Origin: Alloalcanivorax marinus
GTDB taxonomy: Bacteria > Pseudomonadota > Gammaproteobacteria > Pseudomonadales > Alcanivoracaceae
Assembly: GCF_016785095.1 (NCBI RefSeq)
Contig: NZ_JAEKJB010000008.1
Location: forward strand, 620,001 to 684,000
Direction: 5' to 3'
Length of the DNA: 64,000 bases
Under the pieces are notes generated by a model. It searched no databases and was not told where the DNA came from. It saw nothing but the letters and a program-made list of their open reading frames with translations. Below, one piece after another: positions 39,026-41,093 of this stretch; the first letter of the stretch is position 1; each line of letters opens with the position of its first letter. The position numbers and the translations under genes were made by a program.

Positions 39026-39115
39026 TCTCATGGAAAACATCACCGCCGAGTTGTTTGAGGTGGGGGGTGGCGGGGGTAGACTGTGGCCTTTTACGGTGAC
39101 GGTATCGGGTTGGTT

Positions 39116-39232
39116 ATGTCCGCCTTTTTCGTGAAGATTCTGCTGTCCCTGGCGGTGGTGCTGGGGGCGTTCGGGTTGTCGTCGTTGTTGCGCGGCGACG
39201 ACTTGCCGTCGGACCGGAAACACTGCCGCTGA
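39116..39232 (+). CDS. Putative 38-residue single-span membrane peptide
   Basis: A short frame starting MSAFFVKILLSLAV with one hydrophobic segment (about 4-24) and a charged, Cys-containing tail. It lies just upstream of the DUF486 gene (14 bases) and could be co-transcribed. No family is recognised; coding status rests on composition and spacing. Confidence 0.4.
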   Translation: MSAFFVKILLSLAVVLGAFGLSSLLRGDDLPSDRKHCR

Positions 39233-39246
39233 CGCGGAGGCCCGCC

Positions 39247-39600
39247 ATGAAGCCTGTTCTGACCACCCTGTGCCTGCTCACCCTGAGCAATGTGTTCATG
39301 ACCTTCGCCTGGTACGGCCACCTGAAGAACATGGCCCACAAGCCCTGGATCGTGGCCGCGCTGGTGAGCTGGGGCATCGCCCTGTTCGAGTACCTGCTGC
39401 AGGTGCCCGCCAACCGTATCGGCCACCAGGTGCTCACGGTGGGTCAGCTCAAGATCACCCAGGAGGTGGTTACCCTGGCGGTGTTCGTGCCTTTTTCCCT
39501 GTTTTACCTGAAGGAGAAACTGAGCTGGGACTACCTGTGGGCGGGGCTCTGCCTGATGGGGGCGGTGTTCTTTCTGTTTCGCGGGCGCCTGATGGGTTAG
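39247..39600 (+). CDS. DUF486 (DMT-like) small membrane protein
   Basis: A 117-residue inner-membrane protein with four predicted transmembrane helices. The family motifs LSNVFMTFAWYGHLK (about 15-29), the ALFEYLLQVPANRIGH stretch (about 48-63) and LKITQEVVTLAVF (about 71-83) are present. Function is unknown; it is related in topology to small multidrug resistance proteins. Co-directional with the following small genes. Confidence 0.88.
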   Translation: MKPVLTTLCLLTLSNVFMTFAWYGHLKNMAHKPWIVAALVSWGIALFEYLLQVPANRIGHQVLTVGQLKITQEVVTLAVFVPFSLFYLKEKLSWDYLWAGLCLMGAVFFLFRGRLMG

Positions 39601-39645
39601 GCCGGGCCTGCTATGATGGCCGGCGACATCCAAGGAGGAATGACC

Positions 39646-39924
39646 ATGCGCATGTTGTTGATCGTGCTGGGCGGCGCTCTGGCGCTGGCCGGCTGCCAGA
39701 GTGGGCGCACCGCTCACCCGCTGCCGGAGGCCTGCTTCCAGGAACCGGACGCCGGCCAGTGCCGCGCGGCGGTGCCACGCTACTATTACAACGCGGAAAC
39801 CGACCGCTGCGAGGAATTCACCTGGGGCGGCTGCGAGGGCAGCGTACCGTTCGAGACAATGGATAGCTGCATGGCAAGCTGTTACGCCCCGGCACCAAAC
39901 CTGCAAGGGAAAGAAATGCCGTGA
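39646..39924 (+). CDS. Lipoprotein with a Kunitz/BPTI-type domain
   Basis: A predicted lipoprotein of 92 residues. The lipobox LALAGC (Cys at 16) follows a hydrophobic leader. The mature part has six cysteines with spacing C-8-C-15-C-7-C-12-C-3-C, the exact Kunitz pattern, including RYYYN and FTWGGC. The residue after the second Cys (the P1 site in BPTI) is Arg, within GQCRA, as expected of a trypsin-like protease inhibitor. AAGGAGG seven bases before the ATG at 39646 supports this start rather than 39613. The next gene overlaps by four bases. Inhibitor function is inferred. Confidence 0.85.
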   Translation: MRMLLIVLGGALALAGCQSGRTAHPLPEACFQEPDAGQCRAAVPRYYYNAETDRCEEFTWGGCEGSVPFETMDSCMASCYAPAPNLQGKEMP

Positions 39925-40256
39925 ACGAGCAGAGCCGGCAATTGCTCAGGGTGGTCTATGCCCTGCTGCTGATCGGCTTGCTCACCGGTGGGGTAACCGC
40001 CCTGGTGGGGGCGGTGATCGCCCACCTGAACGCGCCGGAGGCGGGGGAGCCGGAACGCTCCCACTACCGCTTCCAGTACCGCACCTTCTGGATCGGCCTG
40101 CTTTATTACCTGATCGCCGGCATCACCACCCTGGCGCTGATCGGCTGGCTGCTGCTGGTGGTGATCGGCGTGTGGTGGCTGGTGCGCTGCATCCGCGGGC
40201 TACGCAGTCTGGGCCGGGGGCAGCCGCCGGCGAACCTGACCAGCTGGGGCTTCTGA
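39921..40256 (+). CDS. Small membrane protein, DUF4870/COG3671-like
   Basis: A 111-residue protein with three predicted membrane spans (about 8-34, 58-75, 75-95) separated by a short charged loop, ending GQPPANLTSWGF. It begins with GTG overlapping the stop of the Kunitz lipoprotein gene (GTGA), implying translational coupling. The layout resembles the COG3671 membrane proteins. Function unknown. Confidence 0.75.
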   Translation: MNEQSRQLLRVVYALLLIGLLTGGVTALVGAVIAHLNAPEAGEPERSHYRFQYRTFWIGLLYYLIAGITTLALIGWLLLVVIGVWWLVRCIRGLRSLGRGQPPANLTSWGF

Positions 40257-40337
40257 TCCGCCCCGTTATCGGATCAGTGTCATAAAATCGTTACCGGCCC
40301 CGCTCACACTGGCGGGTCCGCCAATCGGGAGACCAAC

Positions 40338-41093
40338 ATGGCTTTATTGCGTTCGTTCGTTTTGCTTCTGGGTTCGGCTCTGCTGCTGGCCGCCTGCGCC
40401 CGCAGTCCCGTGGTGCAGCTCTATGATGGCGCCCAGAAACCGGACGCCCAGGTTCTGACGGTGCGCGTGCCGTCCGACCTGGAGGTGTTCACCATCAATG
40501 GCCGTGAAATCGACGGCGTGAACACCTTCTTCAGCAGCGGCTACAAAGACCTCAAACTGACCCCCGGTCGCTACGAGATCGTTGCCTTCTACAAGCGCCT
40601 CTGGGATCTCGATCCGGACAATCACGAGGTGATGAAATCCGACCCCGCGAAGTTCGTGGTGGACGGTCAGGGCGGTGAGTTCTACCGGCTCGGCTTCAAG
40701 CGGCCGGAAGGCCCGGAGCAGGCCCGTGAGCTGGCCGACGACTTCTCCGGCTGGGTGGAGAACATGCAGACCGGCGAGAAGACTCCCTCCGAGGACAGTG
40801 GCCTGGTACTCAACCGTGGCCTGCTGGCGCCCATCACCGGCACCAATGTGGAAAGCGCCGCCTCCGCCAGCGTCGCGCCCCAGGGCGGTGGCGGCACCGA
40901 TCAGCCGGTGCGCGCGCGGCCCCGCAAAGCCACCACCGTGGCACCGGAAAGCGAGCAGCCACAAGCCGCCGCCCCGGCTCCCGCCGCCGCGCAAGGCGCC
41001 CAGAGCGGCGGTTACCTGGACACCCTGAAAGCCCAGTGGAATCAGGCCACCCCGGAGGAACGCCGCCAGTTCCTGCAGTGGCTGTCCCGGTAA
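40338..41093 (+). CDS. DUF2057 (YccT-like) family lipoprotein
   Basis: A 251-residue exported protein with a lipobox (LLAAC, Cys at 20). The DUF2057 domain spans about 35-150, with VRVPSDLEVFTINGREIDG (about 42-60) and LKLTPGRYEIVAFYKRLW (about 73-90). A Pro/Ala/Gln-rich linker (about 185-225) precedes a short C-terminal helix. The family is of unknown function. The gene stands alone, with a REP-like repeat after it. Confidence 0.84.
   Translation: MALLRSFVLLLGSALLLAACARSPVVQLYDGAQKPDAQVLTVRVPSDLEVFTINGREIDGVNTFFSSGYKDLKLTPGRYEIVAFYKRLWDLDPDNHEVMKSDPAKFVVDGQGGEFYRLGFKRPEGPEQARELADDFSGWVENMQTGEKTPSEDSGLVLNRGLLAPITGTNVESAASASVAPQGGGGTDQPVRARPRKATTVAPESEQPQAAAPAPAAAQGAQSGGYLDTLKAQWNQATPEERRQFLQWLSR

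Follow-up and report, generated by a model that had tools for sequence, protein, structure and literature searches.

Kunitz inhibitors are usually regarded as animal proteins. Two of them, HAI-1 and HAI-2, are described as membrane-bound inhibitors that regulate membrane trypsin-like proteases such as matriptase (PMC12940448). On the bacterial side, the sole Kunitz study that we found in the open-licence PMC literature concerns KABP1-5 of F6W77, attributed to Acinetobacter baumannii, a secreted protein of 303 aa that combines five Kunitz domains; the members with Arg at P1 are reported to act on factors Xa and XIa, and transfer from host animals is suggested (PMC11511053). In the same literature, no paper was found on an Alcanivorax Kunitz protein or on an exchange between Kunitz and ecotin. 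Ecotin (PF03974), an envelope serine-protease inhibitor that is unrelated to Kunitz in fold and family, is described as periplasmic and soluble and is thought to act on exogenous proteases, and E. coli's own proteases are not among its targets according to the review (PMC9904509). On the protease side, the S1A protease VesB of Vibrio cholerae (4lk4), which bears a GlyGly-CTERM, is reported to be cleaved at Arg-Ile and retained on the surface; it appears to activate itself and seems inactive before export (PMC6219818). No Kunitz partner of VesB was found in the text of the literature searched.

Here, we describe a Kunitz lipoprotein-like gene of Alloalcanivorax marinus, located at 39646..39924 on the forward strand of the window, that is, the whole stretch of 64,000 nucleotides that was analysed. 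Like KABP1-5, its product is a gammaproteobacterial Kunitz protein, with Arg at P1 as in the active KABP members, but the architecture of five domains and the secretion set KABP1-5 apart, judging from their description in PMC11511053.

Gene and product

The frame at 39646..39924 (+) is a real gene with a Kunitz domain. It is open over 92 aa plus stop and is preceded by the ribosome-binding-like AAGGAGGA (39632..39639, +), which ends six bases 5' of the ATG at 39646; AAGGA-rich stretches similar to it are found upstream of many orthologues, and nearly all aligned orthologues start with M-R. Residues 29-79 (39730..39882, +) match PF00014 at E 1.7e-14, with 54.2 bits versus a cut-off of 21, far beyond chance, and this is the only PF00014 match in the genome (G000). 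The description of the product by the first-pass annotation as a 92-residue lipoprotein-like protein with a complete Kunitz domain is borne out, and the features on which it had relied, RYYYN, WGGC, six domain cysteines and an Arg right after the second of these (Arg40, the P1 residue, 39763..39765, +), can all be read in the sequence. Ecotin is absent among the Pfam matches of the protein, and none was found in G000. A promoter scan of 39100-40400 identified no sigma-70-like site.

The N-terminal region (39646..39696, +) resembles a signal peptide with the lipobox LAGC at residues 14-17, read by eye, in which Cys17 would be the lipidated residue; this cysteine is invariant in 24/24 aligned family-type proteins. 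The Pfam model LPAM_1 reaches 11.7 bits, below its cut-off of 20, and the putative lipoprotein status is assigned from the lipobox pattern. Under the Lol rule, lipoproteins that lack Asp after the lipobox cysteine are directed to the outer membrane. Asp occupies this position in none of the 35 distinct proteins, which points to the outer membrane, and the product is probably lipid-anchored there.

Fold, cysteine spacing and origin

When the domain was modeled alone with AlphaFold, from 72 sequences, the best model reached a pLDDT of 92 and the other four 58-72; the full-length protein gave a mediocre model (pLDDT 71). The best PDB match in Foldseek was the second Kunitz domain of TFPI in complex with trypsin (1tfx_C, 46% identity, TM 0.87), VIA-align yielded Z 9.3 to APPI (1taw_B), and the top PDB matches were all Kunitz. 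The domain is thus predicted to adopt the Kunitz fold, matching TFPI, APPI and BPTI, with which it also shares the order of the six cysteines and the location of P1 directly after the second. Unlike these proteins, it has a fourth gap of 11 rather than 12 residues, VPF in place of NxNxF and a lipobox, and it belongs to a separate clade.

The first-pass annotation had called the spacing of the cysteines exactly that of Kunitz domains. Their order is, but the spacing is 8-15-7-11-3, compared with 8-15-7-12-3 in 11/11 animal domains. The difference lies in the fourth gap (39835..39867, +), which contains GSVPFET and reads CxGxVPF where the animal domains have CxGNxNxF; a 12-residue gap with Asn at the BPTI-43 position is the animal-type mark, and the residue missing here falls close to Asn43 of BPTI. 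A scan of species genomes with the family alignment yielded 158 relatives, of which 80 were kept. These come from Alcanivoracaceae, Bacteroidota, Neomarinimicrobiota, Chromatiaceae, Myxococcus, archaea, Patescibacteria and others, with many metagenome bins, and the scan patterns are biased towards F[IT]WGGCxGxV and a basic P1. With the fourth gap left free at 8-15 residues, 64 of the 80 loci fit the six-cysteine pattern, all with 11 residues; in 15 of the other 16, the sixth cysteine comes one residue earlier and the fourth gap is again 11, and in L104 it comes one later. Two PF00014 matches outside the scan (L216 and L217, in genomes G862 and G815) have a 10-residue fourth gap and YSGC. The 11-residue gap is therefore a common form in prokaryotes, not the sole one. 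This test is that of the 80-locus scan, given that the 56 non-family prokaryotic domains considered below were picked with the 11-residue gap fixed; one of these 56 fits the P1-biased pattern, and five are without the other pattern.

The loci in which the sixth cysteine is one residue early, forming CxxC (L064, L071, L074, L080, L088, L089, L091, L092, L096, L099, L112, L115, L118, L120 and L124), belong mostly to Bacteroidota, often with a further cysteine after this motif, and L115 carries three such Kunitz genes in a row. In addition, a 379-residue frame of Saprospiraceae MAG-131 (L122:5509-6555) encodes six tandem Kunitz domains whose P1 residues are, from first to last, K, E, K, E, K and R.

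Within the family, all six cysteines are kept in 36/38 genomes. The exceptions, L009 (G005) and L038 (G044), come from two genera, and each has lost domain cysteines 2 and 4 at once, the two that would form the 14-38 disulfide. Of the Kunitz pairing pattern 1-6, 2-4, 3-5, this joint loss supports pairing 2-4 only.

Kunitz domains were noted at the outset as uncommon in bacteria, and the genome samples agree: PF00014 was detected in 3/398 phylum-sampled genomes, two of them from the genus to which the window belongs, and in 5/395 genomes from the phylum of G779, where the five include one 26-position fragment and G779 itself, the genome of Croceitalea locus L112, chosen for having a Kunitz domain. 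Of 390 genomes drawn from the order, 16 had a match; 14 of these belong to the family, and one of the remaining two is a weak, broken match. The gene is nevertheless no local oddity, with PF00014 in 9/13 genomes of the genus and orthologues in 38/46 Alcanivoracaceae genomes at a conserved locus; the protein of Alloalcanivorax profundimaris (L046) is identical to that of the window. The Kunitz stop is overlapped by four bases by a DUF4870-like membrane protein gene (39921..40256, +; PF09685, E 4e-6), which is followed by the conserved neighbour DUF2057 (40338..41093, +; PF09829). DUF2057 lies downstream of the Kunitz gene in 30/30 family loci checked, with the DUF4870-like gene detected between them in 24/30, and both neighbours are kept in the Kunitz-less loci of G001, G002, G011, G012 and G013 (5/5); L072, from another family, is non-syntenic with this locus.

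In a tree of neighbouring proteins from 35 loci, G001, G002, G011 and G012 form one clade (support 1.00) beside Kunitz-bearing Alloalcanivorax, and G013 is placed among Kunitz-bearing Alcanivorax, so that this tree, which covers neither G030 nor G031 nor G041, shows two losses. One old acquisition of the Kunitz gene with later losses is the simplest history. As for a mobile element, the protein had no match in plasmids or phages at E 1e-3, and none was confirmed in viral contigs. Upstream of the Kunitz gene, a DUF486 gene (39247-39600) was considered as a functional partner; it was found in none of the eight Kunitz-less genomes, was likewise not found in Kunitz-bearing G038, G039 and G045, and in G014 and G034 is separated from the Kunitz gene, making it a weak candidate.

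A tree of 83 domains places the 11 animal sequences on one side of a branch, apart from the 72 prokaryotic ones, with support 99/95 on 54 columns, an unsettled bootstrap (correlation 0.962) and long branches in four animal rows; the prokaryotic rows were chosen by similarity, the animal rows are the best PDB matches, and the split is undated. Alcanivoracaceae domains as one clade had a p-AU of 0.43. Between the two origins that the first-pass annotation had contemplated, an animal-derived transfer and an old bacterial branch, the tree, with its few alignment columns, favours placement in a prokaryotic branch, and a recent animal origin is not supported by these sequences. A recent transfer from an animal, which the animal identity of the best solved-structure matches and the rarity of Kunitz genes in bacterial samples could suggest and which PMC11511053 proposes for its own case, thus appears highly improbable in view of the separate animal clade, with the reservation on its bootstrap, the 11-residue gap common to relatives in other phyla, and the single conserved locus across the family.

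The P1 residue and the alternation with ecotin

P1 is basic (Arg or Lys) in 37 of the 38 family genomes with Kunitz, and among the 33 distinct six-cysteine family domains, 21 carry Arg there and the other 12 Lys, followed in all 33 by Ala or Gly at P1'. The domains missed by the cysteine pattern (L009/L039 and L038, in G005 and G044) were read separately: without cysteines 2 and 4, P1 Arg is kept in G005, and P1 is Thr in G044. For nine of nine gene pairs with dS 0.1-0.35, dN/dS is 0.03-0.17, which indicates purifying selection on the Kunitz gene; over 269 pairs with dS 0.1-1.2, the median is 0.31 and values range up to 0.87 (L007/L021), the larger distances being unreliable. The suitability of the P1 Arg for trypsin-like proteases is supported, as far as residue comparison goes.

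Protease inhibition is not universal among animal Kunitz proteins. A Kunitz scaffold serving adhesion, assembly or signalling would be compatible with the 56 other prokaryotic domains, in which P1 is basic in 27 and non-basic in 29, including some with Asp or Glu, and with the two family members that lack the 14-38 cysteines; for the family as a whole, such a role seems improbable, given the nearly uniform basic P1 and the uniform small P1' residue.

Ecotin was identified in 5/46 family genomes (G001, G002, G011, G012 and G030), never alongside Kunitz: it is present in 5/8 Kunitz-less genomes versus 0/38 with Kunitz (Fisher p 4e-5, kinship ignored). Because ecotin occurs in 23/381 genomes drawn from the order, the 0/38 alone is unremarkable and the 5/8 is striking; the independent events behind the pattern are few, one clade of four plus G030. 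Neither inhibitor was found in G013, G031 and G041, the last of which is 64% complete. A swap by ecotin at the same site was considered for G002 and rejected, with ecotin located at C1:2890515 and the Kunitz locus, without the Kunitz gene, at C1:4613725; at the latter, DUF4870 directly adjoins a gene that, by eye, looks metallo-beta-lactamase-like.

The trypsins of the same cell and the possible target

PF00089 matches, which include HtrA-like proteins and S1A proteases, were detected in 46/46 family genomes; the S1A proteases mostly span 550-600 residues and have signal-like N-termini. G000 encodes two S1A proteases, L157 and L158, both with IIGG preceded by PR at the cut site and with Asp189. 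Within the last 60 residues, L157 scores over the GlyGly-CTERM cut-off and L158 does not; a comparison of GlyGly-CTERM with full-length L157 and L158 gave no match at E 0.01 (with the L157 reference three bases off). The protease domain of L157 matches VesB (4lk4) at E 2.2e-26, and animal trypsin-like proteases score higher.

We tabulated the PF00089 matches listed with E <1e-25 and one match of G038, 92 loci in total, of which 90 were parsed (all except L245 and L253); this table covers the matches listed and leaves out HtrA-like and weaker ones, the parsed cut sites of L140 and L227 (G034 and G035) probably fall within the signal sequence, and L262 is without a parsed site. Among the matches listed, with kinship ignored, at least one protease that combines Asp189 with a basic residue at the cut site was identified in 35/38 Kunitz genomes versus 3/8 without Kunitz (p 0.002), the exceptions being G040, G044 and G045 among the former and G012, G013 and G041 among the latter. 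When G044, with its Thr at P1, was regrouped after being seen, the split became 35/37 genomes with a basic-P1 Kunitz versus 3/9 others (Fisher p 2e-4, again for the matches listed and with kinship ignored). In the Kunitz-less clade of G001, G002, G011 and G012, one protease has Tyr before IVGG and Asn189 in 4/4 genomes, and the other has Gln before IIGG in 3/4; the protease of G044 has a Leu cut site. G013 encodes two Arg-cut Asp189 proteases and neither inhibitor. The best PF00089 match, the only one inspected in these genomes, is HtrA-like in G040, G045 and G031. Overall, Kunitz absence tends to coincide with ecotin or with changes in the secreted trypsins of the same cell, with exceptions and few independent losses.

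A basic-P1 Kunitz protein that is maintained by selection in the envelope would need a trypsin-like target. We give about an even chance to the possibility that this protein is an anchored inhibitor whose main target is the cell's own self-activating trypsins of the VesB type, S1A proteases with an Arg-Ile cut site and GlyGly-CTERM. The Arg at P1 (Lys in some relatives) would occupy the S1 pocket of such proteases, with its Asp189, and by acting as a safety catch, the inhibitor would stop Arg-cut zymogens from starting an activation chain in or on the envelope. Where the proteases changed or ecotin was gained, the Kunitz gene could be lost; its absence where proteases lost the Arg cut site or Asp189, and its damage in G044, fit such control. 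Several observations argue against an own-trypsin target. A basic-P1 Kunitz is kept in G040 and G045, where no S1A trypsin was seen; G013 encodes Arg-cut trypsins but neither inhibitor, and G012 and G041 keep one such protease without Kunitz. There is no linkage of protease genes to the Kunitz gene, and the 15 genes of the window that served as markers include none beside it; furthermore, the independent Kunitz losses are few, two on the neighbour-protein tree, and L158 falls below the GlyGly-CTERM cut-off. In addition, the review of ecotin states that the proteases of E. coli itself are not its targets (PMC9904509), and given that VesB is seemingly inactive before export (PMC6219818), a catch in the periplasm may be superfluous.

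The ecotin pattern fits own and foreign targets alike. The lipoprotein could instead shield the envelope against foreign trypsin-like enzymes, whether these come from grazers, predatory bacteria, competitors or the surfaces of animals, as ecotin presumably does elsewhere, a possibility that we take seriously while leaning somewhat against it. It would account for the Kunitz/ecotin exchange, ecotin being thought to act on exogenous proteases (PMC9904509), and for the Kunitz genes kept in G040 and G045 with no S1A trypsin seen, and the A. baumannii-attributed Kunitz set inhibits host factors Xa and XIa via P1-Arg domains according to PMC11511053. By itself, however, a shield leaves unexplained the changes in the cut site and pocket of the own proteases in the Kunitz-less clade, and P1 stays basic, with no sign of arms-race change.

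Extending the own-trypsin proposal, we tentatively suggest, with more doubt than confidence, an envelope trypsin/antitrypsin circuit in which the lipid-anchored Kunitz protein would hold in check self-activating VesB-type trypsins anchored at the surface of that cell and would be exchangeable for ecotin, loss of one partner being accompanied by change in the matching residues of the other (Arg cut site, Asp189 and basic P1). By analogy, this is the logic described for HAI-1/HAI-2 and matriptase (PMC12940448), although those inhibitors are animal transmembrane proteins, and the bacterial pairing, if it exists, would be convergent. The data point to a prokaryotic Kunitz branch with its own indel signature, maintained at one locus through most of a marine bacterial family with a trypsin-type P1 under selection. 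The ecotin exchange and the corresponding changes in the cells' trypsins provide a way to test whether bacteria require inhibitors for trypsin-like proteases of their own, and they could assign a physiological function to inhibitors that are commonly interpreted as a defence against hosts. These patterns suggest that bacteria too may restrain their own trypsins.

As an observation in its own right, the four proteases that combine Asn for Asp in the S1 pocket with Tyr before IVGG (L170, L172, L174 and L176, in G001, G002, G011 and G012) are, judging from these residues, probably not trypsin-like in specificity.
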